From: Balneolaceae bacterium
GTDB lineage: Bacteria; Bacteroidota; Rhodothermia; Balneolales; Balneolaceae
NCBI GenBank assembly: GCA_034521495.1
Contig: JAXHMK010000004.1
Coordinates: 62,001-126,000 of the forward strand
Direction: 5' to 3'
DNA: 64,000 nucleotides
In this document: piece by piece, positions 808 through 20,549 of the stretch
Layout: every line of letters starts with the position of its first letter
How positions within the stretch are numbered: position 1 is the first letter of the stretch
Notes under the pieces: model-generated
The model's input: only the letters and a program-made list of their open reading frames with translations
What the model was told of the DNA's origin: nothing
The model's database searches: none
Position numbers and translations under genes: made by a program

Positions 808-2070
808 TCAATCCAAATAGACCTCAATTCGATGCCATCCGCTTTCAAAGGTATAATTGATCGACAGATTGTTTTGATCCACAATTCGTTTGATGATGGA
901 CAGACCAAGTCCAATAGATTCTGAACTCTGCTCGGCTTTTCTGAATCGTTCGAATAGTTGATCGGGATCTATTTCCGGATCATCTCCCGAATTGGATATT
1001 ACGAGTCTCTCATCATCCAGTTCAATTTTTATCTCTCCGTTCTCCACATTGTGCCGAACTGCATTCTGAAAAAGGTTGGTCCACAAAATATCAGCCAGAA
1101 CGGGATGCATTTGTACCTCAACATCATCCTGAACATCCGTCTCAACTGTCAGATTATTTAAGGCGATAAACTCCTTGAACGCTTCAAGACTCTCATTGAT
1201 AATATCACTCAGGTTCACCCTCTCGTTATTCTGAAATTCATGATTCTCTATTTTGGTGAGAAGTGCCAGGGATTCACTCAATCTCGACAGTTTCTTTACC
1301 GATTTTTCAAGGGATTCTATGTATTTATATTGCTCTTCGGTAAGTTCAGTTTCAGAAAGCAGTTCCAGTTTCCCTTTGGCAATAGCCAGCGGTGTCTGAA
1401 GCTCATGAGAAGCATTTTCAGCAAATTCCTTCAGGTTCTTATAGTCGGCCACTGCTTTGCGGGTCATCTTCTCTACAAATCGATTCAGATCATTAAACTC
1501 TTTCACATTGGTTTTCTCAGCTGGAACATACTCCTTCTTATGAAGCTGAAAATTGGCAATTTTTTCGAGTGTTTTCCGGAAGGGTTTAAAGAGTCGTCCA
1601 GACACCAAAAACCCAATTCCAACGGCTCCTACAATCTGCATACCTAAAATCCACAGCAACGTTTTAACAACCGCCTCGGTAATATCATCTGTTTCAATCA
1701 TGGCACCGTAAGTTGAGATATAGTACGACTGTCCATTAATATTCCTCCAGGCTGACACTTTAACATTCGGCTCGTTTTGTTCAAGCCGGTCGTGATAAAT
1801 AAGTGTATCGCCCACTTCTACCCTCTCTTCTACACTATAATTCAATTCCCGCACAATTAGGTTGCGGTCTCCCTCAACATCTCTGCGATGATGAAATTCC
1901 CGCCCTCTCTCCAACAGGTACGTTACACGGTCAATTCTCTCCATAAATTCCCATGTAAGCTCTCGGTCAACTTCATCTTTTATGATGAAGTATGAGAACA
2001 CTCCGCCAATCCCAAGCACAATCACCGTAATGACCAGGTAGATTAAAATAAATCGGGTAATCAGCTTCAT
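808..2070 (-). CDS. Sensor histidine kinase
   Basis: This 420-residue membrane histidine kinase has TM1 at about 4-30, a periplasmic sensor region of about 105 residues and TM2 at about 137-157. The dimerisation helix carries the H-box ENASHELQTPLA with phospho-acceptor His222. The ATPase domain has an N-box with Asn336 (LFQNAVRHN), a D-box (ISNSGDD) and a G-box (IGLGLSI). It has no clear HAMP signature beyond a short linker. Its start overlaps the stop of the upstream response regulator by 4 bp (ATGA), so the two form a classic translationally coupled pair. It lies directly downstream of the two binding-protein genes on the same strand, which makes a role in sensing that block's substrate possible but unproven. 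The periplasmic domain is not one I can assign. Confidence 0.93.
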   Translation of the reverse strand: MKLITRFILIYLVITVIVLGIGGVFSYFIIKDEVDRELTWEFMERIDRVTYLLERGREFHHRRDVEGDRNLIVRELNYSVEERVEVGDTLIYHDRLEQNEPNVKVSAWRNINGQSYYISTYGAMIETDDITEAVVKTLLWILGMQIVGAVGIGFLVSGRLFKPFRKTLEKIANFQLHKKEYVPAEKTNVKEFNDLNRFVEKMTRKAVADYKNLKEFAENASHELQTPLAIAKGKLELLSETELTEEQYKYIESLEKSVKKLSRLSESLALLTKIENHEFQNNERVNLSDIINESLEAFKEFIALNNLTVETDVQDDVEVQMHPVLADILWTNLFQNAVRHNVENGEIKIELDDERLVISNSGDDPEIDPDQLFERFRKAEQSSESIGLGLSIIKRIVDQNNLSINYTFESGWHRIEVYLD

Positions 2071-2759
2071 GATCCGGCCCTGTTGGCTTTAAATTTGTAC
2101 CCAATGCTGTACACACTCTCGATATAATCATTCGCACCTGCATCCACCAGTTTTTTGCGAAGATTTTTGATGTGCTGATACACAAAATCGAGATTATCCA
2201 GGTGATCTACATAATCACCCCACAGGTGTTCGGCGATATTTTGTTTGGACAGAACCCGGTTTTTATTTGATGCAAAATAGAGGAGTAAGATCGTATTCTT
2301 TAGGCGTCACTTCAACGGGATTCTCATCAACCGAAATCTTCTCGCGTTTTTGTGTTAATGGAGATCTCATTCGCCCGAACAATTTCGCTTCCTCCAAGAT
2401 TATTCCGGCGATTGACCGCTTTTATTCGTGCCTGATAACTCTGGTAACTGGAACGGCTTGGTGAGGTAATCATCGGCGCCCAATTCCAGGCCGGATACTT
2501 TATCATCCAGAGAATTTTTGGCGGAGATGATAATCGTACCGGTCTCCGGGTTCACGGATTTCAATTCCCGCAATACCTGCAATCCATCTCCTTTGGGAAT
2601 CATAATATCGATCAGCACCACATCGTAGGTGTACGACATGATCTTGTCAAACGCCTCATCGTAATCGACGGCCGTTTCACACCGGTGTCCTTCTCTCTCC
2701 AAATACTTTATGATATTCTCAAGAAGATCCCTGTTATCTTCAACAATTAATAATTTCAT
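2067..2759 (-). pseudogene. OmpR/PhoB-type response regulator with three frameshifts
   Basis: Residues 1-108 are a clear receiver domain: acidic pocket VEDN, phospho-acceptor Asp51 (VVLIDIMIPKGDG) and Lys101 (YLTKPF). The frame then shifts three times, near 2428, 2340 and 2286, each by one extra base, so the total length (693 nt) is again a multiple of three. Reading across the shifts gives a winged-helix effector domain with VTPKEYDLL, a helix containing RVLSKQNIAEHLW and the terminal hairpin SVYSIGYKFKA, ending at TGA 2067-2069. The intact protein would be about 229 residues. Its partner kinase is intact. Three independent +1 indels in one gene suggest either poor sequence quality here or a recently dead regulator; the domain would be lost in the sequence as given. 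Confidence 0.85.
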
Positions 2760-2845
2760 AGTACCCTAAATATATAAGATAACTTTGAAGGAAAACTGAA
2801 GGGATGATTGCAATCAAAAAATATTCTGTCTACCATCATTTAAAA

Positions 2846-4027
2846 TCAGGGCATTTCAGATATCATAAATGTAGAACGCGTTGATCCTAAAATATCAAAT
2901 GAAATCATTCCGTTTATTCCCGAGATCTCCATATTGGCAAGTTCCTTTTGTATATGGGCACTCTCAGCACCATTCGATCTGATGGCTTCGAGAAGGGCGG
3001 TTGTACCATCATACAAATAAGCAGAATAAACTCCTGGCAAATACCCGTACATATTGTAAAAATCTGCTTGAAATTCTCTCTGTTTTTCTGAATCCCAATT
3101 TCCAGACCTAATCGTAAAAACCGGATTTGATATATTCTGAAGCTGATCATCATTGAGATCGATAATCGATGTATATACGGGTATTTCAATATCATCAAAG
3201 TCCAACTGCGAGATTAATATATCCCATTCATTGGAACTGCCAAAAAATACAATCACTTCAGCATCGGATTCAGATATTCCAGATGCAATTTGAGCAAAAT
3301 TAACATCACCAGCTGGATAGGTCCAGACGTTTGGTATCTGAGAATTTTCTTCTTCGATCTTCTGAAGAAAGGATCTCCTAATAATACTCTGGTCATAGTC
3401 ATCTGAAGAGACAACGGCTATATTTTCGTTCATATAGTTTTTGGAGATCCCATCAACCAACACTTTTGCCTGCTGCTCAGCATGGGGCATTGTACTGAAA
3501 AACCATGGAATATTAATCCTGGACAGGGCAGGATCGGTGGAAAGCATGGATATGAACGGGACCTGAGCTTTTGTGCAAACTTGTTCGATTAGATGGGCAC
3601 TTCGGCCGTCAACAAATCCTAAAAGTGCCGTTGTACCGTTCTCAAAAATTAGATCTACCGCCCGTTTGGACCCGATACCCCAATTGCCATCAACGGATTT
3701 TACAAAAAGTTTAATTGGTTTTTCATGAATTCCGCCAGATTGATTTTCTTTCTTTATTACCAAATTAACGACATCTACAGCCTCGCGCATTAATGAATTT
3801 TCTGAGGGGCTTTCGGTAAGCAAAAGGCCGATTTTTATGGGTTCTTCAATCTCAGGGCCTGTTGACGGAACCGATTGGGCACAAACAGGCAGGGTGGGTG
3901 ACAAGCAAATGAGAAAACTCGTCGTAAAGAAACAAAGAGCCACAAAATAATCATTTAAATACCTGATGATATTTGCTGGCAACTGTATGATTTTATTTGC
4001 TCGGATATTTAACGACAAACTTTCCAT
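2846..4027 (-). CDS. Periplasmic ligand-binding protein (Peripla_BP_6 type), second copy
   Basis: The protein has 393 residues with a long n-region and hydrophobic segment (about 29-48) ending VCAQ, a likely signal-peptidase I site. The remainder resembles branched-chain amino acid/amide binding proteins of the type I periplasmic fold: EPIKIGLLLTE strand, a GIHEKPIKL loop, TTALLGFVDGRSA and STDPALS. Its start lies 35 bp inside the end of the preceding gene, so translation is probably coupled. Both genes share the core fold and are evidently paralogues, but this one is more divergent. No LIV-type permease or ATPase gene is present in the window, so a role as ligand sensor or chaperone for the neighbouring redox proteins is as likely as transport. 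Confidence 0.85.
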   Translation of the reverse strand: MESLSLNIRANKIIQLPANIIRYLNDYFVALCFFTTSFLICLSPTLPVCAQSVPSTGPEIEEPIKIGLLLTESPSENSLMREAVDVVNLVIKKENQSGGIHEKPIKLFVKSVDGNWGIGSKRAVDLIFENGTTALLGFVDGRSAHLIEQVCTKAQVPFISMLSTDPALSRINIPWFFSTMPHAEQQAKVLVDGISKNYMNENIAVVSSDDYDQSIIRRSFLQKIEEENSQIPNVWTYPAGDVNFAQIASGISESDAEVIVFFGSSNEWDILISQLDFDDIEIPVYTSIIDLNDDQLQNISNPVFTIRSGNWDSEKQREFQADFYNMYGYLPGVYSAYLYDGTTALLEAIRSNGAESAHIQKELANMEISGINGMISFDILGSTRSTFMISEMP

Positions 4028-5249
4028 TTTCTACTTCCATCAGCCAAACTTTACCTACATCGTTCCAGGTGGTGTCCAGTATAATTTCGCCGGTTACTCC
4101 CTGATACTTACGGATGCTTGTTAGTTCATCCCTTATTCTGACGTGATTCAGACCCGCTTCTTCAATCGATTGTATTAACATTTTCATTCCGTCATATGTA
4201 TGTGCAGCAAAAAGATCTGGCTCAGAACCATATCGCTCCCGATAGTTTTGAACGAACCGGAGGTAGGTGGGGTCTTGACTTTGTGGATTGTAGGGGAATA
4301 TTGCCACAACTCCCTCCGCATTTTCACCGGTACGTTCAAGGAACCGGTCTGTTACCAAACGATCACTGCCGAACACTTTATGATTCATTCCCATATCCCG
4401 CATTCGGTTTACAATTTTTGCAGCATCCTCATCATTTCCCCAGATGAGTACCGCTTCGGAATCGGAGTTTCGAATTTTTTCCAATTGTGGATCAATATCC
4501 TCTGCTCCAGGAACATAATTTAAGTGTATGCGCACGGGATGACCTAACCTGATGGCACTCTCCTGGAAAATTTTTACACCAAGCCTTCCGTAACGGTCAT
4601 TTGCTCTCAATATGGCCACATTCTCCAGTCCCTCTTTTTCAAATATTTGTTTGGCAAGAGCATAATTGTTTTGTCTGTCATCCGAGATGCAACGAACCAT
4701 CCACGGTATACGGGTTTCTGTAAGTGTAGGATCTGTAGAAGTTGTATTCACCATTGGCATCTCTAACTTCAAAACCACCCGAAGCGCAACATGAGAATTA
4801 TTTCCATCAATAGATCCAACTATCGCCCATACTCCTTTATCGTACAGATCGACAATCTCGTTTCCAGTGGAACCCCATAAGCCAACATCGTTTTTTACCA
4901 ATATTTCGTAAGGCAAACCTTGATATCCGCCTTGTGCATTAGCTTCTTCCAGAGCTAACGTAGCTCCTTTTAACATACTCTGGCCGTAATCATCATCATA
5001 GGATCCTTCGAGGGGAGCTACAAAACCGATTTTCACTGTTTTGAGATCTGCAGGAGCGTTACCATCCCTCCCTGGCCCAAGATAAGGCTGCGATTCATCG
5101 AAGAATAACATATAAGGCTCCAGGAATTGGCTATATGGCAACAATTCTTCCGGAGTATCCGCATAATGTTTAATCTCCTGAGCTTGTGTAAACTCACCAT
5201 ACAAAGCAACCAGTAATATGAGTGGAAGGAATGATAACTTTTTCATCAT
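3993..5249 (-). CDS. ABC-type periplasmic substrate-binding protein (LivJ/AmiC-like)
   Basis: The 418-residue protein starts with a signal peptide (MMKKLSFLPLILLVALYGEF, cleavage near TQAQ). The two-lobed type I binding fold is recognisable: TVKIGFVAPLEGSYDDDYGQ, MLKGATLALEEANAQGG, VNTTSTDPTLTETRIPWM, VAILRANDRYGRLG and FAAHTYDGMKM, all typical of LivJ/AmiC-like proteins. About 70 residues precede the first core strand, longer than usual. It follows the RidA-like gene by 12 bp and overlaps the next binding-protein gene. Orphan binding proteins beside propeller proteins are known from PQQ-dependent alcohol dehydrogenase loci, which offers a possible parallel, but no PQQ enzyme is visible here. 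The ligand cannot be read from sequence. Confidence 0.9.
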   Translation of the reverse strand: MMKKLSFLPLILLVALYGEFTQAQEIKHYADTPEELLPYSQFLEPYMLFFDESQPYLGPGRDGNAPADLKTVKIGFVAPLEGSYDDDYGQSMLKGATLALEEANAQGGYQGLPYEILVKNDVGLWGSTGNEIVDLYDKGVWAIVGSIDGNNSHVALRVVLKLEMPMVNTTSTDPTLTETRIPWMVRCISDDRQNNYALAKQIFEKEGLENVAILRANDRYGRLGVKIFQESAIRLGHPVRIHLNYVPGAEDIDPQLEKIRNSDSEAVLIWGNDEDAAKIVNRMRDMGMNHKVFGSDRLVTDRFLERTGENAEGVVAIFPYNPQSQDPTYLRFVQNYRERYGSEPDLFAAHTYDGMKMLIQSIEEAGLNHVRIRDELTSIRKYQGVTGEIILDTTWNDVGKVWLMEVENGKFVVKYPSK

Positions 5250-5261
5250 AACAGTATCTAT

Positions 5262-5840
5262 TTAGACATTTTTACAAACTGCAATCGCCTGAATTTCAAC
5301 CAGAAGTGTATCCCAGCATAGAGTTGCCTGGATGCCAGTACTGGCGGGCAGTGGGTCGAGTTTTAACCAGTTGTAAAACTGAGTTCTGACTTCATTAAAA
5401 TCTTTATAATCGCGTTCTATATCACGTAAATAGCAGGTCGTTCGAATTACATCATGCCAAGACATATTCTCCGAAGCCAACAGTTCCGATATATTTCTGA
5501 ATGTTCTCCAGGTTTGTGCCCTGAAATCACCAATATGTTCGGCGTTCCCCTCTTCATTTACACTTGCCGTACCGGATATTAAAACCACGGAATAATCTCC
5601 AAACTCCATCCGCAGTGCACGAGAAAAAGAAGACGGCCGGGCATAGTTAAAAGCCTCATTTAAAACATTGGGTGCTTGTACAGCTTTTTTTGGAAGAGGA
5701 GGCCGGTCGTCATGAATATCTGGTATCTCAAACTCCAGGTAGTTCTCATTAGCCGATAGAATTCCCAGCTTTACCATCTCTTCTTTTTCACCTGTACTCA
5801 GGTTTAGTTTCTTTTCTGGTAGCCTTATTGCATTATTCAT
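5262..5840 (-). CDS. RidA/YjgF/UK114-family protein with N-terminal extension
   Basis: The C-terminal 130 residues carry the RidA fold: VVLISGTASVNEEG, QTWRTFRNISELL, DVIRTTCYLRDIE and the ending LPASTGIQATLCWDTLLVEIQAIA. Classical RidA enzymes hydrolyse reactive enamine/imine intermediates and use an Arg near the end (CR motif); here that position reads ATLCWDT, so the standard deaminase arginine is apparently missing and activity is uncertain. About 55 extra N-terminal residues precede the fold. There is no signal peptide, so it is probably cytoplasmic although most neighbours are exported. It sits 12 bp upstream of the first binding-protein gene and 75 bp after the propeller gene, inside the same directional block. 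Confidence 0.87.
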   Translation of the reverse strand: MNNAIRLPEKKLNLSTGEKEEMVKLGILSANENYLEFEIPDIHDDRPPLPKKAVQAPNVLNEAFNYARPSSFSRALRMEFGDYSVVLISGTASVNEEGNAEHIGDFRAQTWRTFRNISELLASENMSWHDVIRTTCYLRDIERDYKDFNEVRTQFYNWLKLDPLPASTGIQATLCWDTLLVEIQAIAVCKNV

Positions 5841-5915
5841 GATTCTGTTATTTTTTGGATTATTCTGTTTTTAAAGACTCTTTCTTTCATAAATTTTTTA
5901 GATGCATTTTTAACT

Positions 5916-7100
5916 TTATAATTGCACAATTTCCGAAGCTTTGGAGAAGCTTAAACCGTCTGCTGTGGCAAGCCATATTTCATCTCCATTTACATCCATT
6001 GCCCATATATAATTGTTTGACAATGCATTTGAAGTGGTGAGTTCGCGACTGTTATCGCCTTCTGTTATAATAATTTTTCCCGTTCCGCTTTCATTCTTAT
6101 AAGTGGCCCATCGATGGCCATTAAAAGTGCTGAATCCGTTATCCGTACAGATGTAAATAACGTTATCCTGTGCTTTCACATAATTAATAAAGTTGCTGGC
6201 AAGGCCGCTGTCATGATCGAAATAACTTTGCCAATTTGTACCATCATACCGGCTCAATCCGAAATAGGTACCTACCCAAAGAATATCATTTGCATAAGAA
6301 ACTCCCGTAGTAATATCATGTACAACACCATCATCGGGATAAAGATCAATTTGCATCTGGTGATCGGGATCCCGGTGCACCCTGAAACGGCCTGAATCTT
6401 TGAAATATTCGAGTACTCCACCACCCCAGGCAGCGATATAAATCTTTTGGTCACTATTGGCTACACCATAAGTCCAGGGTTCATGCATCGGGGAATTTTG
6501 CTCATTGAATATTTCCCACTGGCTGGTATACGTATTTAATTTAGATGCTCCTGCAGCCGTTGCAGTCCATACATATTCGCGATCAGTTACGACCGAATAG
6601 ACTACATCATTGGCCAAACCGCTGTTAAACTGGTTAAAGACTTCCATCTCACCTGCCGACCATTTTGTCAGGCCAGACATTGTGGCAATCCAAACTTCGC
6701 CTGTGAGCTCACTAATATCTATATCCAGCACATAGTTATGGGAGAGGCCGTCTTCTGTTGTAATCACTGAAAACCCGCCCTCCTCATATATAGCCAGTCC
6801 TTTATCGGTGCCAACCCAAACTCGGTCCCCATCAATTTGAATGCTGGAAATTTTGTTGGATGGAAGGCCATCTTCTATGTTAAAATTCTTCCATTTTCTG
6901 AAGATTGGTAAGTTCCCGGAATCTTCATCGGGCAGCTCCACTCCGGCTTTACCGGCAGATTCTATCTCAACAAGGCTCTCATCTGCAAAAGCCTCTTTAT
7001 TCATCTTGTTTCCTTTGCTGAAAGCAAAAATGAAAAAGATACCGATGAAAAATAAAGCAGCGAATGCTGTCCAATATGGTTTTCGATGTATGGTTTTCAT
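5916..7100 (-). CDS. Membrane-anchored two-component-regulator-type beta-propeller protein
   Basis: This 394-residue protein has one N-terminal membrane segment (about 8-26, AFAALFFIGIFFIFAF) and then repeating blades of the regulator-propeller (Reg_prop) type, such as NIEDGLPSNKISSIQIDG, VWVGTDKGLAIY, TTEDGLSHNYVLDI and LWVGTYFGLSRYDG. In hybrid two-component sensors of Bacteroidota these blades form the periplasmic ligand-binding half; here no Y_Y_Y domain, kinase or response regulator follows. It would display a propeller on the outer face of the inner membrane. Only 7 bp separate it from the upstream cytochrome gene, so the two are surely cotranscribed. It could act as a docking or sensing partner for the exported redox proteins; that is inference. 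Confidence 0.88.
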   Translation of the reverse strand: MKTIHRKPYWTAFAALFFIGIFFIFAFSKGNKMNKEAFADESLVEIESAGKAGVELPDEDSGNLPIFRKWKNFNIEDGLPSNKISSIQIDGDRVWVGTDKGLAIYEEGGFSVITTEDGLSHNYVLDIDISELTGEVWIATMSGLTKWSAGEMEVFNQFNSGLANDVVYSVVTDREYVWTATAAGASKLNTYTSQWEIFNEQNSPMHEPWTYGVANSDQKIYIAAWGGGVLEYFKDSGRFRVHRDPDHQMQIDLYPDDGVVHDITTGVSYANDILWVGTYFGLSRYDGTNWQSYFDHDSGLASNFINYVKAQDNVIYICTDNGFSTFNGHRWATYKNESGTGKIIITEGDNSRELTTSNALSNNYIWAMDVNGDEIWLATADGLSFSKASEIVQL

Positions 7101-7107
7101 AATGGTC

Positions 7108-9108
7108 TCATTTATAATACTTGGCGGATCCCAGTGATTTTAAGTATTCAATTAAATCATTCAGTTGATTCTTGGTCATGTCGTTGGCAGCTCCATGTTC
7201 ATCATTGTCGTTGTAAATTGTCCAGATCTCTTCCAGGGTTTGCGCGCTGCCATCGTGCAAGTATGGTGCGGATTCATAAATATTGTTCAAATTCGGTGAA
7301 TCAAATGTCATACCCGGGCTGTCATGTTCTTTTTTCGTGCCGACATCTGCATTCGTCCTGTTGGTAAAATTGGGTGGAGGATGACAAGTGACGCATTGAT
7401 TCCCGACAGGTATTTCTCGCCCATCATTTGTCATAGTCCTGTAAAAAATTTCTTTTCCTCTCTCTTGAGCTTCTGTCAGCTCACCATTTGGCAGACGGAA
7501 CCTGTTTGGCGGATGCTTTAGCTGCGTCAAAATGTAGGATGTAAGATTGGTCAGATCCTCGGGAGAATATGATTCAGTACGGGTTACAAATTTCGAAAAT
7601 CTCATACCGTCCTGCATATATACACTTACATTATGCCCGTTCCATTTAAACGGTGATGTTTTGGGGAGCTCCCGCAGAGTTTGAACATTTGTGAGGTCTA
7701 TCCCCGGTTTAAGAGCCATATCGTAGGTAAGCCCATCTTCGTGGCCGTCGGGATGACAAGTATAGCAGCTATATTGATATTGAAAGGTTCCCCCTGCATT
7801 GTAAAAAAGTCTCTGTCCCTGCCTGATCGGTGTATTCTGATCTGCTTTACTTAATACAATCGATTCTCCATTACTGAATGATGTCATATCTACAATGCCA
7901 ATTTTATCATTTAAATATTCTGCATAGTAGAGTTTCGATCCATCCGGTGAAAACGCCATCCCTTTTGGAGCGGATCCGGTCTCTATTCTTTTGATGACAA
8001 ATTCTTTACTTAACCCCAGGTTATTCTCCGGCATTCTAATCTCTCCGGCGTCAATTCTCAATAGCAGAGATTTTAACTTGCTCATCTCGATAATACTCAA
8101 AATATTCGCACCTGAATGAGATACGACGGCGTATTTTCCATCCGGAGAAACCTTTACATCAAAAGGATCGGCATAGAATTTATTCGGCTCATCCAGCAGT
8201 AATTGATACATTTTCCCGGTGGATGTATTATAGACACCAATTCCATGATTAATCATCCATCCATTTTCAATCTGAACGGCCGGCACCAGATTTTTTGGCC
8301 GAATCAGGGTAAACAGCGCCAGCTCACCTTCAGGCGTATAGTCAATGTTTTCCATGATATGTGCTGACATCAACTCTTTTCTATCTGCCAATCGCTGCTC
8401 CGACGTGCTGATAAAAGTGGCTTCCACCTTAGGTGGCGTTCTGAATTCTATATGTTTTGTTCGCCGGCTTAACACCATTAAAGTTTCTCCATCGGGTGTT
8501 AAAGAGGCCCCGGTCGGGTTGTTGCCAACTGAAAGCCGTTTTAACTCTTGCCCGGATGAAAGATCAATAATTGAAACATCTGATGTAAACGTGTTGACCA
8601 CATAGAGCATATTCCCTTCTCCCTCATATTGAAGTTCTGCCGGGCCTGCTCCTGTTTGAAGAGTATCCACAATATTACCCTCTGGAAGCAGGATCTCTAT
8701 CACATTGTCATCCCATTGATTCGAAACATATGCAGATGTGCCATCTTCATTAAGTGTCACACTATGCGGGTGATTTCCCACTTCAATTTTTTTAATGACC
8801 ACCTTTTCATTTAGGTCAACAATAGAGAATGAGTTATCCTCCTGGCCTACTACGTAGAGGTAATTTCCATCGGGTGAAATTGCCACATTAAAAGGAGAGA
8901 GATAGTCATCCGTTAAAAACTGAGTGAATAAATTATCCACCTGACGACCAACATGGCAGTTGGTACATGTCAGCGGGAATCCTGTTGTTGCTGTCATGTG
9001 ATCTACATGATCCCGGGCCCAGTCGTGCCCTCTTTTTGCGACAAATACAAAAACCAAAGCCGTAACGGCCAAAAGGGTAGTAAGTACTATTTTTTTATTT
9101 GTCTTCAA
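7108..9108 (-). CDS. YVTN beta-propeller fused to MauG-like di-haem cytochrome c
   Basis: This 666-residue exported protein has an N-terminal membrane segment (about 7-24) and three CxxCH haem sites: Cys48-His52 (CTNCH), Cys448-His452 (CYTCH) and Cys572-His576 (CVTCH). Between the first and second sites lie YVTN-type blades (SPDGNYLYVVGQEDNSFSIV, PHSVTLNEDGTSAYVSNQ, PTGASLTPDGETLMVLSR). The C-terminal 220 residues resemble the cytochrome c peroxidase/MauG family, with TFDSPNLNNIYESAPYLHDG and the final LNDLIEYLKSL. A periplasmic electron-transfer or oxidising enzyme is likely. It follows the HzsA-like gene by 10 bp and precedes the propeller gene by 7 bp. The physiological substrate is unknown. 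Haem attachment would need a cytochrome c maturation system elsewhere in the genome. Confidence 0.92.
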   Translation of the reverse strand: MKTNKKIVLTTLLAVTALVFVFVAKRGHDWARDHVDHMTATTGFPLTCTNCHVGRQVDNLFTQFLTDDYLSPFNVAISPDGNYLYVVGQEDNSFSIVDLNEKVVIKKIEVGNHPHSVTLNEDGTSAYVSNQWDDNVIEILLPEGNIVDTLQTGAGPAELQYEGEGNMLYVVNTFTSDVSIIDLSSGQELKRLSVGNNPTGASLTPDGETLMVLSRRTKHIEFRTPPKVEATFISTSEQRLADRKELMSAHIMENIDYTPEGELALFTLIRPKNLVPAVQIENGWMINHGIGVYNTSTGKMYQLLLDEPNKFYADPFDVKVSPDGKYAVVSHSGANILSIIEMSKLKSLLLRIDAGEIRMPENNLGLSKEFVIKRIETGSAPKGMAFSPDGSKLYYAEYLNDKIGIVDMTSFSNGESIVLSKADQNTPIRQGQRLFYNAGGTFQYQYSCYTCHPDGHEDGLTYDMALKPGIDLTNVQTLRELPKTSPFKWNGHNVSVYMQDGMRFSKFVTRTESYSPEDLTNLTSYILTQLKHPPNRFRLPNGELTEAQERGKEIFYRTMTNDGREIPVGNQCVTCHPPPNFTNRTNADVGTKKEHDSPGMTFDSPNLNNIYESAPYLHDGSAQTLEEIWTIYNDNDEHGAANDMTKNQLNDLIEYLKSLGSAKYYK

Positions 9109-9118
9109 CTTTCTGGAA

Positions 9119-10549
9119 TCACTTTTTATTTATCATTTCCCGGAGAGCCTGTACCTCGGCCATGTTTGTAATTCTTGAAGTATCCGTGATTATGACCGGC
9201 TCCTTTTTAATCGCCATAGGCACCCGGTTTACAGGCGACATCTCTTTTTTTGCATGACACCCTATACACGCACGGCGTTCATTAGTACGAAGCCACATCC
9301 AACCGGAAGGCCCTCTCAGCCTTTCTCTATTGGCATCAAGGCTGACAAATCGGATGGGCATATTGGACTGAACTTTAAGGTAGAAGGAGCCATCCCCGGC
9401 CACTTCAATCTCATCTAATATTTTATCAGTACTTTCAATTCGAACATATTTCGTTTTCGAATCTCCATCTGTCTCAATTTGCGAATGATTAACGTCTTGA
9501 CTGATCAGAATACCCGATCCCTCTTCATCGGAAATTGAAGATGGCAACTTTTTGGGTACTCTTTTGCTTGCGAACTACAACCGGTTGAACAGAGTGATAG
9601 CCCTCATCTTTATAGATTAATTCTTCATCACCCTTAAAACTGATTGCTGAAAGACCAAATACTCCCTCCGATCCGCTTTTTGCAGAAATCACCAAACGTG
9701 TTGAATCGAGGATACCTGCAGATTGGATTGCCCCTGCATCATAAGTAGCAATAATCTCTTTGGGAAGAAGCGGGTTTGCATAAGACAAAACCACAAGTTC
9801 ATCCACATTTCCATCTCCCTGGACGAATATCAATTTATCTTCCCTACTCTCGCGTACAGTACTTTTGATCTGAGAATCAGATTGATCATGATAAAACGCC
9901 TGAGACTTGGTTCCATCCGGCCTCAAAACCATAAATTGGCGACTTTTTTTAGTGGGATAGAACTGCTGGCTGATTATGGCGATCCGGCCGTCATACAGAA
10001 TGGATGGATAAAAATCACGATGCGGATGAAAGGTTAGTTGATTAAGCCCGGAACCATCTTCCAGAATCTTAAATAACGGATAGGTTTTTCCAATCTCCGG
10101 GTCTTCAATTTCACAGGAAAACACAATATCACCTGTTGGCAAAAAGGAAGGTGTATAGCAATTTTTTGAACTCTCGAATACTTTTTTCTTAGCCGATCCA
10201 TCCAGATTCATCGTCCATATCTGCCATGAATCGTTTTGATTTACTTTTGCGGAGAAAACGATCAGCTGATTATCAAAAGATAGTGAAGGAGAAGTAGCAG
10301 AGTAAAAATCAGACGTTAAATTTTTTATACCACTTTCAGGGTTTTCATAGTTCAGGCTTACAATTCTTGCTTCTTTATAATCGGGAGGTACATTCTCACT
10401 ACCGCCTGCCAAGTGATTTTCAGCAGCAGGCATTTTCGTAAAAACCAAAATCGAATCCGGTATTGTCTCTTCTGAACCTGTACGAATAATCAGGAACAGC
10501 GCAAAGAGCAGCAATTGATAATTCCGATAAATACAATTCTTCTGCGCAT
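9119..10549 (-). pseudogene. Hydrazine-synthase-alpha-like propeller protein with CxxCH site, frameshifted
   Basis: Two overlapping frames together form one protein. The upstream part (stop at 9525) has TolB/PD40-like blades (TSPSLSFDNQLIVFSAKV, FLPTGDIVFSC, PSILYDGRIAI). The downstream part, entered through one extra base near 9553 in an A-run, has GDGSFYLKV, SGWMWLRTNERRACIGCH and a haem-binding CIGCH about 47 residues from the end. This combination is characteristic of proteins related to the middle and C-terminal parts of hydrazine synthase alpha (HzsA). A better start is ATG at 10547-10549, giving a hydrophobic anchor MRRRIVFIGII followed by LLLFALFLII after a missing base near 10520; the total length then stays in phase (about 476 residues). 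No HzsB/HzsC genes occur, so hydrazine synthesis is not implied. Likely a periplasmic c-type haem protein. Confidence 0.75.
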
Positions 10550-10559
10550 ATCAGGGCTC

Positions 10560-12248
10560 TTATTCCTGAATGGTAAGAATTTGATTCGCTTCTACATTTT
10601 CCATTGTCTGGACGATTCCGGATGGCCAGCGAATTTCTATCTGATCGATGATTGAATGTCCTGCCAGTCCAAAATGAATTCTCGGATCGTTTTGGGAGAG
10701 ATATCCTCCGGCACTTGTCTTTTCCATCGTTTGGGTTTTTCCGCCTGCAACAACTTTAACTTTTGCACCTATTCCATCCCTGTTGCTGGTAGTGCCTACA
10801 AGATTAATCAAAATCCAGTTATTCAGATTTCCTTTGTCATTTCGAAGCAGGGTAAAATTGTCTCCGAGATTTGAAATAAAGACGTCTATGTCTCCGTCAT
10901 TATCGATATCACCAAAACAGGCACCTCTTCCCACTTTTTCTTCCTCGAAGTACGGTCCTAAAGTCAAAGAAACGTCTTCGAACGTTCGGTTTTGCCTGTA
11001 TTCAAAGACCTGGTCTTCCTGCCCGTGAAGGTGCTGAATCTCTCCGTTCACTTTAAAAATATCGAGATCCATATTGTTGTTATAGTCCAGAAAAGATGAG
11101 CCCCATCCGGCAAACTGGCCGCTTGGAATTGCAATGCCCGATTGATAGGAAAGATCGACAAATCTTTCACCATCAAGATTGGTATAGAGCGCACTGTAGG
11201 ATTCGTCTGTTACAAACATATCGGTGAATCCGTTATCGTCATAATCTCCAAAAACCACAGACATGCTTGATGTGGCTTCCCCGGTATGATTAAACGCTGC
11301 ATGAGATACCATCCCAACATCCGTGTAGCCTTTACCTTGATCATTTCGGAACAGATAATTGGTCATCATATCATTTGCCACATAGATATCCGGATAACCG
11401 TCGTTGTTATAATCTGTCGTTCCCACGCCCATTGCCCTGCCGTCTTTCCGGTACACTCCCGTCTCACGGGTTACATCTTTAAACCGGCCATCTCCCAGGT
11501 TCCGATAAAGAACATCCGGCTGTCCGTCAAAATTCAACGGTCCCGGGTAGCCGTCCGGCGTGTAGAACAGGTTATATTTGGGATCGTACTCCAGGTAATT
11601 GGCTACATAAAGATCAAGCAGGCCGTCTAAATCATAATCAATCCAGAGTGCAGCAACACTGAATTTATCACTTTCACCGGCAACACCGGCCTGGCGGGCT
11701 ATTTCTCTAAAAGTACCATCTCCATTATTATGATAAAAAACATTCGGGCCATAGTTAGAAACATAAATATCCGGATAACCGTCATTATTATAATCCCCGA
11801 TTAATACTCCTGAACCGAAACCAGAATCACCCACACCGGCAATTTCTGTTACATCTTCAAACTGACCATTTCCGAGATTCCTGTAAAGTTTGTTCGTTGG
11901 CAGATTTCGTGGTTTCTCACCTTCACTGAATTGCTCGGAGTACGACCCATTTGCAATGTAGAGGTCCATAAAGCCATCCTGGTTATAATCCAGAAATGCC
12001 GCACCGGATCCAACCGTTTCAACCACATTGGACAACAGATCATCTCCAAACGTTTGAGTGAATTCAATACCCGAATATTCGCTGACATCCATAAAAAAAT
12101 CTTCGCCAACAGGAGGCATATCAGGCAATGCAGAAGGAGTTGAATTACTTTGATTGCATGTGGAAAAGGAAAAACCGGCTGCAATTAAAAATGGTACTAT
12201 AATAAGTAGTGCCCTGTTATGTTTGCCAGTCACAAAATTGAAAATCAT
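10560..12248 (-). CDS. CRTAC1-family FG-GAP/VCBS repeat lipoprotein with ASPIC/UnbV domain
   Basis: The 562-residue product has a signal peptide with a lipobox-like end (FSFSTC, Cys near 30), so it is probably a lipoprotein. Integrin-like FG-GAP/VCBS blades with calcium-binding loops repeat through the body: LDYNQDGFMDLYIANGSY, GDYNNDGYPDIYVSNYG, IDYDLDGLLDLYVANYL, GDYDDNGFTDMFVTDES and GDIDNDGDIDVFISN. The last 80 residues are the ASPIC/UnbV domain (WILINLVGTTSNRDGIGAKV, IEIRWPSG). It is the first gene of the minus-strand block; a promoter-like element lies about 70 bp upstream. The first 239 coding bases and 84 bp of leader are duplicated at 18408-18730. Such proteins are common surface-exposed adhesion or scaffold proteins in this group; the specific role is unknown. 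Confidence 0.93.
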   Translation of the reverse strand: MIFNFVTGKHNRALLIIVPFLIAAGFSFSTCNQSNSTPSALPDMPPVGEDFFMDVSEYSGIEFTQTFGDDLLSNVVETVGSGAAFLDYNQDGFMDLYIANGSYSEQFSEGEKPRNLPTNKLYRNLGNGQFEDVTEIAGVGDSGFGSGVLIGDYNNDGYPDIYVSNYGPNVFYHNNGDGTFREIARQAGVAGESDKFSVAALWIDYDLDGLLDLYVANYLEYDPKYNLFYTPDGYPGPLNFDGQPDVLYRNLGDGRFKDVTRETGVYRKDGRAMGVGTTDYNNDGYPDIYVANDMMTNYLFRNDQGKGYTDVGMVSHAAFNHTGEATSSMSVVFGDYDDNGFTDMFVTDESYSALYTNLDGERFVDLSYQSGIAIPSGQFAGWGSSFLDYNNNMDLDIFKVNGEIQHLHGQEDQVFEYRQNRTFEDVSLTLGPYFEEEKVGRGACFGDIDNDGDIDVFISNLGDNFTLLRNDKGNLNNWILINLVGTTSNRDGIGAKVKVVAGGKTQTMEKTSAGGYLSQNDPRIHFGLAGHSIIDQIEIRWPSGIVQTMENVEANQILTIQE

Positions 12249-12332
12249 AAATCCATTTTTCGACTTAAATCTTTGGATAGCTTACTTAGCTGAAGGATAG
12301 TTTTAGAGTTTTATATCCAAATATATAATAAA
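12010..12332. repeat. Copy 1 of 323-bp direct repeat
   Basis: This stretch covers the start of the CRTAC1-like gene and its leader. It recurs with essentially no difference at 18408-18730, in the same orientation and 6398 bp away. Similarity past the repeat continues weakly: AT-rich sequence near 13487-13570 resembles 18766-18850, which suggests that the IS630 element was inserted into the upstream part of copy 1 after or during the duplication. Confidence 0.93.
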
Positions 12333-12345
12333 GGATATTTGCAAA
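12318..12345 (-). promoter_or_regulatory. Possible Bacteroidota-type promoter of the CRTAC1-led block
   Basis: Read on the minus strand, TATATTTG at 12325-12318 fits the -7 consensus TAnnTTTG of Bacteroidota, and a TTTG lies 16 bp upstream (12345-12342). The gap is shorter than the usual spacing, so only the -7 box is persuasive. The -7 box is conserved in both copies of the duplicated leader; the upstream part is not. The distance to the CRTAC1 start is about 70 bp. Confidence 0.35.
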
Positions 12346-12358
12346 CAGTGCAACCATG

Positions 12359-13490
12359 CTTACTGAGTGTAACTACCACTTAATTCGTCAAGTATTCTTC
12401 ACCATAGGTCCAGTTGAACGGTTTGGCGCTGGTTTCGTTATACTCCCTAATGTAGCTCATCAACTGATCGACCAGATCTTTTTTGGAATGCCAAACTCCA
12501 TCTTTGAGTATTTTCCGGCTCATAATGCTAAACCAGATTTCAATCTGATTGAGCCACGAGGAGTAGGTGGGAGTAAAATGAAGGTGGAAATTTTCTTTTT
12601 TCAGCCAGCCACTCCTTGACAGCCTTGTTTTTGTGGATTGACAATTATGCAAAATAATATGGATCTGAACATTGCGGTATCTGCGGTCCAGGTGTTTGAG
12701 AAATTTCAGAAAATTTTCGGAGTTGTTGCGGTCGACACTGCCGTGCGGTGATTCTCCTGTGTGCACGGCAAGAGCGGCCATCAGGTTTACGGTACCATTG
12801 CGTTTGTACGGTAGCGGTAAGCCTGCGAGGGTTCCCTGTCCGTAAAGGCAGCTCCGGCTGGGTACGATCCAGGGCCTGAATCTGGGTTTCTCATCTACCG
12901 ATAGCACCAATGCGTGTTCAGGGGATTCAGATACAGACCAACAATATCAATCATCTTGGATTCAAATTCCGGATCCGGGCTTTTCCCGCACCAATAGTCG
13001 GTTTTGTGTGGCTTGAGGTCAGCCTCTCGCAGGATCTGTGAAACCCAGCTCTGGCTCATCTGGCACATTTCGGCAATCTGGTGTTGGCTGTAGCGTGGCG
13101 TTCCGCTTTCGGTGCGCTGGCAGGCAAGATGGATCACCCGGTTGCGGTCTGCCTCCGTAAAGATCGATGGTGTGCCGGGGCGCTGGGCATCGACCAACCC
13201 CTGCGAGTCCATCTCGTTCAAACCGCTTGCGCCATTTGGCAATGGAAGGTTCACTGATCCGATTCTTTTTGCTGGATTCTTCATAGGTCAATCCACCGAG
13301 CCAGTCAAAATAATCTGAGCGCGCAGGCTCAGGCGCCGTTCTATCCTATGAGATCGTGCGTAGGTAATCGATTGGCTTCGGCTTTATCTGAGACCGTGAT
13401 TGTCGTACGTTTAGCCATCGGTTTTTCTTCTCAAGATACGGAATCAGTAAATATTTTACTTAACTTATTTAACGGTAGCTACACTAGCAA
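12359..13490 (-). mobile_element. IS630-family insertion element, degraded
   Basis: A transposase coding region is bounded by imperfect terminal inverted repeats: 12359-12383 (TTACTGAGTGTAACTACCAC...) and 13468-13491 (read inward on the other strand, sharing GGTAG-TACACT). The element is about 1.13 kb, the normal IS630 size. It lies between the upstream leader of the CRTAC1 gene and sequence resembling the flank of the second repeat copy, consistent with insertion upstream of that gene. The TA target duplication expected for IS630 cannot be fixed because the ends have diverged. Confidence 0.7.
12380..13418 (-). pseudogene. IS630 transposase, several frameshifts
   Basis: Translation across frames from ATG at 13416-13418 gives the full IS630 layout: N-terminus MAKRTTITVSDKAEANR, helix-turn-helix RISEPSIAKWRKRFERDG, second HTH QIAEMCQMSQSWVSQILREA, and the DDE domain with LVLSVDEKP, IHIILHNC and HFTPTYSSWLNQIEIWF. 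Indels occur at homopolymers: an extra G near 13196, a missing C near 12917, a missing C near 12888, and others near 12835 and 13300-13360. The catalytic DDE residues are still recognisable, with Asp in SVDEK, a His-Asn variant (ILHN rather than the usual ILDN) and Glu in NQIEIW. The protein cannot be made in the sequence as given. Confidence 0.88.
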
Positions 13491-13656
13491 AAAATACGCT
13501 TTTTTGGGTGTGAGAAAGGTTTTTCAGAAATATCTTGATCGGTAATTTTTAATTTCAGAAAACCTAAGAAATTTTATCAGAAAGAATTATTCAAACTGTA
13601 CCTTCAATCGATATCAGGCCTTTTGTGTGAAGAAAGCAATCCGACTGTTCGTACAT

Positions 13657-14274
13657 TCAACCCATCCTGGCAGACCCCCAGTAGTTGAAACTGGCGGCTT
13701 TCCATCCGGGAATGTACATCGTTTCCAGGTGTGCAATATCGAAACCGTTGCCGGAAATCAGGGCTGGAATATCCCGGTTTAGATTACAGCCTCCGGCCAG
13801 TTTTGTCCACACCGGATTGATTCGGTTTTGCCATTTTTCTACGGAGTCATCCGGTGCTTTTCCATGTTCACAGAAGTACAGAATACCTTTGGGTTTCAAC
13901 ACCCGGCGCATTTCGGTAAGGGCAACTTCTGGCTCGGATATCGTGCATAAACTGTAGGTAATGACGACCGAATCAAACTTGTTTTTTTCGAAGGGCAACT
14001 CCTCTGCACGGGCTTGCTCGAATACAACATCAAATTGCAGACTTCCTGGATCTAATTCATTCTCATCCCACATCTCTTCAGATGGATCAATACCTGTTAC
14101 ACTCTTCACTTGAGCAGGATTATAAAAGGGAAGATTCAAACCGGAACCAATTCCGATCTCCAATACTGAACCGGTTGCCTTCGGTACAATTTTCTGCCTC
14201 TGTTTTTGATTCGGCTTTTGCCTGCATGTCCAGTGGACAAGTTTGGGCAGGATATACGAGGAGTAGATACCCAT
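13657..14274 (-). CDS. Class I SAM-dependent methyltransferase (UbiE/Methyltransf_11 type)
   Basis: This 205-residue protein contains the SAM-binding motif I VLEIGIGSGLNLPFY, an acidic motif near VTGIDPSEEMWDE, motif post-I EQARAEELPFEKNKFDSVV and the following ITYSLCTISEPEVALTEMRRVLKPKGILYFCEHG, all characteristic of the Methyltransf_11 fold. The N-terminal MGIYSSYILPKLVHWTC resembles small phospholipid or quinone-type methyltransferases near membranes. It is a single gene with a 214-bp gap to the next gene on the same strand. Substrate unknown. The frame is intact although it is surrounded by degraded genes. Confidence 0.92.
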   Translation of the reverse strand: MGIYSSYILPKLVHWTCRQKPNQKQRQKIVPKATGSVLEIGIGSGLNLPFYNPAQVKSVTGIDPSEEMWDENELDPGSLQFDVVFEQARAEELPFEKNKFDSVVITYSLCTISEPEVALTEMRRVLKPKGILYFCEHGKAPDDSVEKWQNRINPVWTKLAGGCNLNRDIPALISGNGFDIAHLETMYIPGWKAASFNYWGSARMG

Positions 14275-14488
14275 AATTTATTCATTGAGTTCTGATTGAC
14301 AAGAAGCGGCTGTATCAGTTCTAATATCCATGCTTCATTAGCATAGAAAGTATCTCATTGCTATGAAATATTATTCAAAAAAAGACTATTTGTAACCACT
14401 AAAAAATGCAACACAGTCTATTACAGGCTTATAGTTATCACAAGATTTGTTAACAAAACTGTTCTTAGAAAATTGAACTAGATCAGCT

Positions 14489-15319
14489 TCACAACTCTTT
14501 AATTACTATGTCTTTAAATGCTATTTTCAATTGATCATTTTTATGTAGTTGTAATGCAATAAAACCTTTTTTGTCTATGCCATATTTTTGATGAAAAAGA
14601 TCATCCAACACTCCTTTACCATCGTAATCTGCTACTGTAATATTATTAATAATAGTAGTGATATTGTTGCCTTTGCAAATAATAACCAAATCATTCCAGT
14701 AAGGAGCTTCATTAGCATAATGATGTCGAACAACCTTTGGAGCATAAATTGCTTTATCCATATTCCAATCAGGTAAATCAGGATAAATCCAACGTTGGTG
14801 TCCTCGTGTTTCATCATATATAAATCCACTCCGCCAGGGATCACTCGGATGAATATCAACTTGAGGTCCGTCCATCCAACCCACCAATTTTGATCCCTTT
14901 ACCATACCCTGACTATCATAACGACTTCTAATTTGAATACCACTATTCCCTGGACTCTCTCTATAGGATTGAAATTTCAACCTCAATTCAAAATCGGCAT
15001 ATTCTTTGCTCGTTTGCAACCAGCTATAATCATGGTCTGTTATTCCCATAGAATTAACGACAATAGCTCCATCTATTACACTCCAAAAATTATAATGTTG
15101 ATCTTCTTTCACCGATTTTATTTTCCACCCATCCAAGTTCTCTCCATTGAATATCGCTACCCAATGACCTGTGTTTGACATTTGGTCGTTGGGGTCCATT
15201 AACGTTTTTTGGTCAGCCTTCTGACTTACAGATTGATGATTTTGTTTGTTTGTTTCAGAGCATGAAAGAACAATACCAAGAAGCAATAAGACAGAAAAAT
15301 TGAATTTGGTTACTTTCAT
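14489..15319 (-). CDS. DUF1080 (3-keto-disaccharide hydrolase domain) lipoprotein
   Basis: The likely start is the ATG at 15319 (MKVTKFNFSVLLLLGIVLSC), giving a signal peptide with lipobox Cys near 20; an in-frame ATG lies four codons upstream. The body is the DUF1080 concanavalin-like fold: WVAIFNGENLDGWKIKS, FELRLKFQSY, SPGNSGIQIRSRYDS, WNDLVIICKGNNITTIINN and the ending GFIALQLHKNDQLKIAFKDI. Members act on or bind sugars in the periplasm, some as 3-keto-glycoside hydrolases. It follows the GH9 gene by 68 bp on the same strand, so the two probably form a saccharide-degrading unit. Confidence 0.92.
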   Translation of the reverse strand: MKVTKFNFSVLLLLGIVLSCSETNKQNHQSVSQKADQKTLMDPNDQMSNTGHWVAIFNGENLDGWKIKSVKEDQHYNFWSVIDGAIVVNSMGITDHDYSWLQTSKEYADFELRLKFQSYRESPGNSGIQIRSRYDSQGMVKGSKLVGWMDGPQVDIHPSDPWRSGFIYDETRGHQRWIYPDLPDWNMDKAIYAPKVVRHHYANEAPYWNDLVIICKGNNITTIINNITVADYDGKGVLDDLFHQKYGIDKKGFIALQLHKNDQLKIAFKDIVIKEL

Positions 15320-15387
15320 TGTGATAAACATTTTTTTACTAATGTTGACTCTTTTATAAAAAACAATTTTCCAGGAAATAGTTGATT

Positions 15388-17724: not shown

Positions 17725-18024
17725 AACGATCTTACTTTTTATAGTTCTATCATCCAAAGGGAGGATAATTGTTAATGACAACTAATACCGGCAAAACCTC
17801 CTAATCTATTCCGGAATAGTTCTATACTGAAAAAACGAAACTCAATGCTGAGGGCTAACTGCTTGATAAATTCTTTTGCATTCTTAGATTTCAAGAAATT
17901 ATTATATACAGCGATGATATTAGATTTTCTTACGTTTCCCCTTTGCTTAGGAAATATAAAAATAAATTTTTTTAGGTATTGAAATAAGATTGATCCCGGA
18001 TCACCGAATCCCTATATCATCTGT

Positions 18025-18405
18025 TTACGGCCGGATCGGCGTTCCGTCGAGGGCGCGGACTTGCGTCCAGGTGTTGAGCTGCTTATCGGGGATCGGAAAT
18101 TTTTTGGCTTCTTCCTCATTGAGATCTACGCCAATACCCGGCGCTTCGTTAATTTTTACGTAACCGTTCTCTACACGTGGCGCCCAGGAAAAATAGCCCG
18201 CAGCCTGTCAGTCATATTCGGCGCCTCCTGGATGCCAAAGTTCCATACGGCCAGGTCAATATGTGCGTTGGCGGCATGTCCTACCGGTGATACATCCCCC
18301 GGACCATGCCACGCTGTACGAACATTAAACCACTCGCCCAGCCTGGCTACCTTCATAGCCGGTGTGATGCCACCGATCTGTGAAATATGAATGCGGATGA
18401 AGTCT
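18025..18405 (-). pseudogene. C-terminal fragment of mannonate-dehydratase-like enolase superfamily protein
   Basis: About 125 residues of the end of a ManD/RspA-type dehydratase are readable: IDFIRIHISQIGGITPAMK, VRTAWHGPGDVSPVGHAANA and FGIQEAP. After a missing G near 18184 the other frame continues with RVENGYVKINEAPGIGVDL and ends ALDGTPIRP. The catalytic N-terminal two thirds are absent. The fragment begins abruptly at about 18406, exactly where the duplicated CRTAC1 gene start ends, so a recombination event fused the two. The enzyme family dehydrates sugar acids, which fits the glycosidase genes nearby and suggests loss of a former sugar-acid catabolic gene. Confidence 0.85.
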
Positions 18406-18407
18406 AT

Positions 18408-18730: not shown

Positions 18731-18964
18731 ATATAATCGCCAAGTACACAACCATTCTCTTATCAAAGAAATGCACTTTTTTAAGCTTTAGAAAGGCTTT
18801 TTAGAAAATTTGAGATTGGTTATTTCTAATTTCAAAAAATTTGCGAGATTTAAACAGCTACAAAAATCATCGTTCAACCCAGATTTTTTGGTTGAATGAT
18901 TTTTGCTTGAGATTTACTGCCAACTGCTTACTGAGCCTCTCCTTTTCCAATCTCAATCATCCTA

Positions 18965-20538: not shown

Positions 20539-20549
20539 CGTTTTTTTTG

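Follow-up and report, generated by a model that had tools for sequence, protein, structure and literature searches.

A hydrazine synthase-related gene cluster in a Balneolaceae bacterium, its counterparts in other phyla and its bystander two-component system

We analysed a 64,000-nucleotide stretch of DNA from a Balneolaceae bacterium (GCA_034521495.1, contig JAXHMK010000004.1, forward-strand positions 62,001 to 126,000; hereafter the window), in which a block at 808-12248 encodes relatives of hydrazine synthase (HZS) alongside propeller proteins, ligand-binding proteins and a two-component system. The initial annotation had described eight genes in one direction; the families that it named and their common orientation were borne out, with the count corrected to nine, all on the minus strand and two of them frame-broken as assembled. 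In the order of transcription, the genes encode a CRTAC1-like FG-GAP/ASPIC-UnbV protein of 562 aa identified by domain scan (10560-12248), an HzsA-like protein, i.e., a relative of HZS alpha (9119-10549), an HzsBC-like protein, i.e., a relative of HZS beta-gamma (7108-9108), a Reg_prop propeller protein of 394 aa (5916-7100), a Rid-fold protein (5262-5840), two LivJ-type periplasmic substrate-binding proteins with Peripla_BP_6 domains (SBP1, 3993-5249; SBP2, 2846-4027), an OmpR-type response regulator (2070-2759) and a PorY-family histidine kinase (808-2070; NF052314, 426 bits against a cut-off of 350). From the CRTAC1-like gene through the kinase gene, the intergenic gaps measure 45, 10, 7, 75, 12, -35, 86 and -1 bp. 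Hydrophobic N-terminal stretches are present in the cluster proteins, including the CRTAC1-like and Reg_prop proteins, with the exception of the Rid-fold protein, the true start of the HzsA-like protein being doubtful. The block is mostly a true unit, of which SBP2 is the final gene; the regulator and the kinase, which occupy a locus common to sister genomes, do not belong to it.

What the initial annotation had called a haem propeller enzyme can be narrowed to a relative of the HZS beta and gamma subunits. The 666-aa HzsBC-like protein comprises an N-terminal anchor, one CxxCH motif, a YVTN propeller and a di-haem end resembling cytochrome c peroxidase and MauG. It matched the NCBIfam models hydrazine_BC at 219 bits (cut-off 1250), beta at 171 (560) and gamma at 94 (625), all far below the cut-offs, and it matched the PDB chains 5c2v_B at 3e-39 and 5c2v_C at 1e-20. 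The Pfam family CCP_MauG was recognised at 31.0 bits (cut-off 25.6), and a further PDB match was to the di-heme enzyme 6e1c. In an AlphaFold model, the propeller superposed on 5c2v_B with a TM-score of 0.90 by target length and a root-mean-square deviation of 2.0. The alignments used for fold prediction held the window protein with 32 of 74 HzsBC sequences and, for the alpha relative, 27 of 62 HzsA sequences.

For the HzsA-like protein, the family given earlier was right, with the correction that as assembled the gene is split over two overlapping open reading frames (ORFs; 10514-9525 and 9547-9119) in different frames. The first ORF gave a weak match to hydrazine_alpha (66 bits, cut-off 800), and the second carries an HZS_alpha domain (PF18582, 49.5 bits against 26.6) with the haem alpha-I CxxCH in the form CIGCH, out of frame with the first. 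One frame break is thus sure, and a second is probable near the start, where an ATG lies at 10549. No second HZS_alpha match was found in the window's own genome. Elsewhere in Bacteroidota loci, the homologues are single ORFs of about 450-510 aa. Evidence on the alpha fold comes from one such unbroken relative (L043) and not from the window's broken gene: its predicted fold (pLDDT 89) superposed on the 5c2v alpha chain with a Z-score of 34.4 over 417 residues, spanning chain residues 53-621 with the haem alpha-I domain included. The runner-up among the 970 chains compared was TolB, at a Z-score of 27.7.

Of the remaining cluster proteins, the CRTAC1-like protein is 54-59% identical across six same-genus clusters, and the Reg_prop protein shows 37-51% identity in 13 relatives from several phyla. 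The Rid-fold protein resembles the Rid family and the chorismatases in its match to Pfam Ribonuc_L-PSP (65.4 bits, cut-off 27.3) and differs from them at the catalytic arginine of Rid imine deaminases (Arg105 in E. coli RidA). At this position, an alignment of 42 rows held serine in 32, alanine in eight and glutamate in one, with one unreadable; since the arginine is missing in 40 of the 42 rows, ordinary imine deaminase activity is improbable for the cluster protein. Against NCBIfam, the window protein reached 50 bits for Rid (cut-off 106) and 31 for chorismatase (cut-off 325), both below cut-off, and the chorismatase model gave 31-46 bits over the cluster Rid proteins scanned. PDB matches comprised Rid chains at up to 51 bits and chorismatase chains at 26-30 bits. 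A chorismatase identity was considered and set aside as only a lead, the scores lying below the cut-off and below those of true Rid proteins.

For SBP1 and SBP2, the closest structures are LivJ-type, which is a hint of family, the ligand not being fixable from sequence. No permease or ATPase genes of an importer were found among the scanned proteins of the window between 0.8 and 17.8 kb. In three Maribacter loci, ABC ATPase-like and permease-like genes lie upstream on the opposite strand and appear, by eye, exporter-like. The presence of LivJ-type binding proteins without adjoining importer genes suggests that their ligand is used in the periplasm.

To establish how far this arrangement extends, HzsBC homologues were sought in 92 genomes of the family, where full-length or strong partial homologues were detected in seven of 27 other genomes of the same genus. 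The 64 genomes from other genera of the family gave weak matches only (best E 1.2e-12), the majority covering the propeller and others the C-terminal haem end. A lone match in another family (G398, locus L041) was rejected, having an internal stop and no HzsA or CRTAC1 match within 4.7 kb. While a scan of genome contigs with the single protein found no relative, an alignment-based pattern scan covering one genome each for 84,980 species returned 161, the best 80 of which were retained and come from Balneolaceae, Bacteroidales, Flavobacteriaceae (Maribacter, Lutibacter, Lutimonas), Cytophagales, Chitinophagaceae, Planctomycetota, Acidobacteriota and Aminicenantes. Loci for comparison were fetched through HzsBC, so that genomes having the other genes alone fall outside their scope, and a locus was testable for a given gene only when its contig extended far enough. 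Five loci that copy others (L042, L044, L045, L047 and L095, copies of L032, L033, L034, L035 and L031, respectively) and the distant single match L041 were dropped from the counts.

Gene order was conserved: the CRTAC1-like, HzsA-like, HzsBC-like, Reg_prop, often Rid, and SBP1 genes recur in nearly every testable Bacteroidota locus. In Bacteroidota other than Balneolaceae, genes were found at the expected place in 46 of 47 loci for HzsA, 43 of 44 for CRTAC1, 45 of 46 for Reg_prop, 33 of 42 for Rid, 45 of 45 for SBP1 and 37 of 38 for SBP2. Same-genus relatives likewise had HzsA, CRTAC1 and Reg_prop (6/6 each) and Rid and SBP1 (5/5 each), with SBP2 shifted upstream (4/4) and a SusC gene (4/4). 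In the group of Planctomycetota and Acidobacteriota, including Aminicenantes, the order is rearranged to HzsA, CRTAC1, HzsBC, Reg_prop and SBP, with CRTAC1 in 24 of 25 loci, HzsA in 18 of 19, Reg_prop in 23 of 24, SBP1 in 19 of 19, two SBPs in 12 of 15 and Rid upstream in 3 of 16. Several apparent misses are matters of start calling, i.e., Reg_prop in L086 and L105, where the longest start of its ORF overlaps HzsBC, and L118, where a long HzsBC ORF covers the CRTAC1 gene; L087 is a real exception. The initial annotation had proposed one periplasmic redox and ligand-binding unit, and the conserved order backs this claim once the kinase and regulator are left out; scattering of the homologues, looked for among the same loci, was not seen.

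The clusters of other species include further genes. The two SBP genes flank a DAHP synthase gene in 31 of 40 loci of other Bacteroidota, one copy (L065, 15206-16078) being recognised by NCBIfam at 453 bits (cut-off 335) and the other 30 assigned by BLAST cluster, and a large TPR/FG-GAP protein is at the expected place in 34 of 35. DAHP synthase is a cytoplasmic shikimate enzyme within a mostly exported gene set. Asparagine-synthase-like and radical-SAM-like genes adjoin some clusters; the pair lies straight after the last CRTAC1-like gene in four Maribacter and Lutimonas regions (L157, 15978-18249, and L158-L160). In three Maribacter regions, the gene next after the pair encodes a large protein, homologous among them, which has FG-GAP/ASPIC domains in the one scanned. 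A match to the radical-SAM-like protein stood beside the cluster in nine of nine genomes, all chosen for being Maribacter or Lutimonas or for having such a neighbour. The radical SAM label derives from TIGR01210 at 93 bits (cut-off 212), a Pfam match below cut-off and a CxxxCxxC stretch, and in a domain scan the Maribacter copy had no Pfam match. By homology, Maribacter has four FG-GAP proteins per cluster, the domains having been scanned in L048 and L157. Maribacter polysiphoniae (L072/L157) and M. luteus (L082/L160) are among the species that carry the cluster. A six-gene core in at least three phyla, extended to about twelve genes in cultured Maribacter, provides a handle on the HZS fold outside anammox.

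We next compared the key residues of HZS. In the proposal for HZS set out in the available portion of PMC12607021, NO is reduced to hydroxylamine at haem gamma-I, followed by condensation with ammonium at haem alpha-I. HzsBC residues were read in the window, seven Balneolaceae relatives, 49 other Bacteroidota and 26 rows from the Planctomycetota/Acidobacteriota side, with Cys165, His144 and Asp168 placed by counting along the 5c2v gamma sequence in the numbering of PMC12758564 and PMC12607021. The N-terminal CxxCH and both C-terminal ones (gamma-I and gamma-II) are kept in all rows reaching them. The position of gamma His144 holds tryptophan in the window and in 80 of the 82 other rows, the other two being too short. 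Cys165 corresponds to aspartate in the window and in 45 of the 49 other Bacteroidota, and to cysteine in the other four, in five of the seven Balneolaceae relatives (two too short) and in 26 of 26 rows from the Planctomycetota/Acidobacteriota side. The latter rows also carry eight additional N-terminal CxxCH motifs (25/26), with four in the remaining one (L098), whose ORF begins at the contig end; in L096, the sole protein scanned, this extended part is cytochrome c554-like. In a tree of 81 HzsBC rows, built by a quick method after L036 and L037 (<500 aa) were excluded, the window was sister to five Balneolaceae rows (SH-aLRT 99) and formed the longest tip (0.8).

On the alpha side, the haem alpha-I CxxCH was present in 64 of the 71 non-window HzsA rows. 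It is absent from all six Balneolaceae relatives (L031-L036), in which a GFTGWDE-type sequence replaces the otherwise constant motif, the seventh row (L121) being a split ORF. The five of these six whose HzsBC reaches the site have cysteine at the Cys165 position, so that the window is their opposite at both sites. No equivalent of Tyr591, expected four residues past the CxxCH histidine, is found in the window (CIGCHAKKEMSP) or in the HzsA rows shown; the position holds glutamate in the window and in most rows. The second alpha CxxCH (alpha-II) is likewise absent from the window and from all 46 HzsA rows of other Bacteroidota, and present in 16 of the 18 unsplit rows of the Planctomycetota/Acidobacteriota side. 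Such natural losses and swaps of the alpha haem, the third cysteine and the alpha-II haem offer a way to test what each haem does.

Part of this system is already known. According to the available portion of their account, Hägglund et al. 2025 (PMC12758564) described alpha and beta-gamma homologues beside CRTAC1, with two SBPs in clade III, and concluded that they are not hydrazine synthases; HZS itself had once been thought to be of de novo origin for want of relatives. As described there, clade III resembles the window in having CRTAC1 upstream of alpha, a fused beta-gamma and two SBPs downstream, and also in an alpha without alpha-II, one extra beta-gamma CxxCH and tryptophan for His144. 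The window agrees with clade III in layout and motifs, and other Bacteroidota agree with it in their gene counts, as far as that portion defines the clade. Homologues of clades I-III all keep the haem alpha-I site in this account, unlike the six Balneolaceae relatives described here. The alpha, beta-gamma, CRTAC1 and binding-protein core was therefore already reported in PMC12758564. What we add are the Reg_prop, unusual Rid, DAHP synthase, asparagine-synthase-like and radical-SAM-like genes and the Balneolaceae variant without an alpha haem motif. The Reg_prop, Rid, DAHP synthase, TPR/FG-GAP, asparagine-synthase-like and radical-SAM-like companions are not named in the accessible part of PMC12758564, and within a partial coverage of the literature we found no earlier report of a cluster of this type whose alpha homologue lacks haem alpha-I. 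The same coverage pointed to no further study devoted to this cluster.

The cluster shares with anammox HZS (5c2v) the alpha and beta folds and the arrangement of gamma di-haem motifs; the window departs from it in the fusion of beta and gamma, an extra N-terminal haem motif, aspartate for Cys165, tryptophan for His144 and the lack of both a Tyr591 equivalent and alpha-II. Alpha lies upstream of beta-gamma here, whereas the anammox order is the converse, as given in the available text of PMC12758564. HZS-like genes were also found by Dalcin Martins et al. 2023 (PMC10732223) in metagenome-assembled genomes of Phycisphaerae, where, as here, an hzsA-like gene is upstream of a fused hzsBC-like gene, and a wider enzyme family with other substrates was suggested; in contrast to the present analysis, the part of that study at hand discusses possible anammox and describes no conserved companions. 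With MauG, MbnH and cytochrome c peroxidase, the HzsBC-like protein has in common two C-terminal CxxCH motifs, the CCP_MauG match and the tryptophan position, which the accessible text of PMC12758564 ties to MauG and peroxidase catalysis. Unlike these enzymes, its di-haem end is joined to an HZS-beta-like propeller and has an HzsA-like partner gene.

Given these findings, a reading to which we assign about even credence is that the genes at 2846-12248 are one copy of a multi-phylum cluster for an extracytoplasmic haem complex that is related to HZS and is not a hydrazine synthase. The HzsA-like and HzsBC-like proteins would form its catalytic core, with the CRTAC1-like and Reg_prop propellers as structural partners or scaffolds. 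In the periplasm, the two SBPs may bind a small ligand resembling an amino acid or amine and hand it to this core. Because alpha-I has no tyrosine ligand, alpha-II is absent in Bacteroidota and the gamma site has a tryptophan, we infer a MauG- or peroxidase-type chemistry at the gamma-I-type haem, which bears tryptophan where HZS has His144. Electrons could enter or leave via haem gamma-II and the N-terminal haem or haems. The Rid-fold protein, and elsewhere DAHP synthase and the asparagine-synthase-like and radical-SAM-like proteins, would act in the cytoplasm on a related metabolite. By guilt by association, the company of the Rid, DAHP synthase, asparagine-synthase-like and radical-SAM-like genes suggests metabolism of a nitrogenous or aromatic small molecule.

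A more specific proposal, which we offer tentatively, is a previously undescribed haem pathway of the periplasm for the synthesis or oxidation of a small metabolite, nitrogenous or aromatic. Cytoplasmic cluster enzymes (DAHP synthase, the non-canonical Rid/chorismatase-like protein and the asparagine-synthase-like and radical-SAM-like enzymes) would build part of this metabolite, the two SBPs would bind it outside and the HZS-shaped complex would oxidise it, with the Balneolaceae relatives using the gamma-type haem alone beside a haem-free alpha. If true, hydrazine synthase would represent a single branch within a wider and more ancient class of enzymes. Several observations weigh against the proposed haem complex. 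The di-haem half of the HzsBC-like model is uncertain: most of residues 440-510 and 570-640 have block pLDDT values of 22-42, which are too low for the di-haem geometry to be checked. In the scanned Planctomycetota protein (L096), CCP_MauG reached 22.3 bits, below its cut-off of 25.6. The cluster is rare, occurring in five of 395 sampled genomes of the phylum at E<=1e-40, its own included. RidA-type imine hydrolysis, considered as a key step, is weakened by the absent catalytic arginine. Finally, the HzsA-like frame is broken as assembled, which bears on activity in this organism.

We compared the region with two sister genomes, G068 and G066, that lack the cluster. By blastn, similarity to G068 ends at window position 2803 and restarts at 18916, leaving an extra stretch of about 16.1 kb (2804-18915), bounded by the two-component system and the remnant of a transporter-like gene, that is absent from both sister genomes (blastn against L143 and L144) and that holds the cluster together with a transposase/GH9 segment. 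Since the stretch is absent from the sister genomes, it was probably inserted here rather than lost there. The response regulator at its edge was present as initially annotated, with the correction that its first frame covers the receiver domain only (open at 2759-2400) and the remainder runs through three successive frames. In most segments compared on either side, ten of ten residues were identical to the G068 orthologue. Because protein similarity is preserved through all three frames, sequence error or damage of very recent date fits the pattern better than long-standing decay.

Real decay, in which the HzsA and regulator breaks are genuine and this genome's copy of the cluster is degenerating, was formerly the favoured explanation of the breaks and now ranks second after the frame analysis of the regulator, as a substantial minority view. 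The breaks do cluster in or near the extra stretch: the regulator and HzsA are joined by a SnoaL-like gene (assigned by eye) beyond the kinase at 168-753, with one frame change relative to its G068 homologue, and by a transposase, presumably IS630-like, that is split into two ORFs with DDE_3 in the first, whereas ileS, hypF, hypD and the FadJ and thiolase genes of the window are open at full length. A neighbouring transporter-like gene is a remnant, and the long HzsBC branch of the window also fits decay. These points are met by the near-perfect regulator similarity, by the open frames of the kinase and of the six remaining cluster genes, by the position of one HzsA break at a short A run and by a 300-bp exact repeat that hints at a difficult region.

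As to function, a rather unlikely alternative is that the cluster is a maturation machine, in which the MauG-like end oxidises not a free metabolite but a partner protein, as MauG and MbnH do; the partner could be, for example, an FG-GAP protein or a peptide produced by the asparagine-synthase-like and radical-SAM-like enzymes. The CCP_MauG score above cut-off and the 6e1c match are consistent with this, as are the four FG-GAP proteins per Maribacter cluster and the asparagine-synthase-like and radical-SAM-like genes beside it. However, such a machine leaves the two SBPs unexplained, the FG-GAP proteins as its substrates are a guess, and the radical SAM assignment falls below both curated cut-offs and lacks a Pfam match in Maribacter.

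The initial annotation had further proposed that the binding proteins report their substrate to the adjacent kinase and regulator. This periplasmic sensing is very unlikely, being largely refuted here by synteny, and finds no support in this genome, although the tight same-strand arrangement of the block would favour it. In both G068 and G066, the kinase, an intact regulator (229 and 227 aa), a transporter-like gene (MFS by eye) and the thiolase, FadJ, SDR, rhodanese and SulP genes stand in the order found in the window, without the cluster. Among 89 family genomes, 24 have a kinase orthologue (59-85% identical), counting the window's own genome, and the seven cluster carriers include none of the remaining 23. 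Conversely, no kinase match at E<=1e-30 was detected in the six cluster carriers searched, with up to 20 candidates scored per genome. The two-component system is thus a neighbour of the extra stretch and not a member of the cluster, because sister genomes hold both genes at the same place without it, and a tempting but wrong functional story is removed. A different two-component pair lies directly upstream in about half of the loci of other Bacteroidota (response regulator 15/33, histidine kinase 16/35), and farther upstream in L050 and L056, so that a regulatory link to the cluster may exist in other species.

A true hydrazine synthase, which would turn NO and ammonium into hydrazine like the anammox enzyme, is highly improbable for want of key residues. 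In its favour are the shared ancestry and fold of alpha and beta-gamma, the retained gamma-I and gamma-II motifs and the Cys165 equivalent on the Planctomycetota/Acidobacteriota side, yet all four HZS model scores lie far below the NCBI cut-offs, the window lacks Cys165, His144, Tyr591 and the second alpha CxxCH, all six Balneolaceae relatives lack the alpha-I motif, and the available portion of Hägglund et al. 2025 (PMC12758564) likewise concludes against it for related clades. PF13447, which covers the hydroxylamine oxidoreductase and hydrazine dehydrogenase partners, was matched in none of seven genomes, the controls likewise giving no match.

The region around the cluster has other features. 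A 300-bp exact direct repeat, one copy of which (12008-12307) spans the initial ~240 bp of the CRTAC1-like gene plus upstream sequence and the other of which lies at 18406-18705, is either a recent duplication or an assembly artefact. Between the copies are 6.1 kb with the transposase ORFs, a methyltransferase, a 3-keto-disaccharide hydrolase and a GH9 enzyme. Of the transporter-like gene that is intact in G066 and G068, no more than the last 26 codons were detected at E<=1e-3 (19023-18946, within the interval 18916-20500); roughly 1.4 kb devoid of long ORFs separates them from a tRNA-Val gene at 20549-20624. Farther along, an InlB B-repeat protein of 207 aa is encoded at 60032-60655, its counterparts near the kinase locus of G068 and G066 having 853 and 776 aa, respectively. 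NiFe hydrogenase and hyp genes occupy 38749-50662 (hypF, hypA, a Vhu-type large subunit, a NuoF-like gene and hypD), with a transposase fragment at 42509-43069 between hypA and the hydrogenase large subunit.

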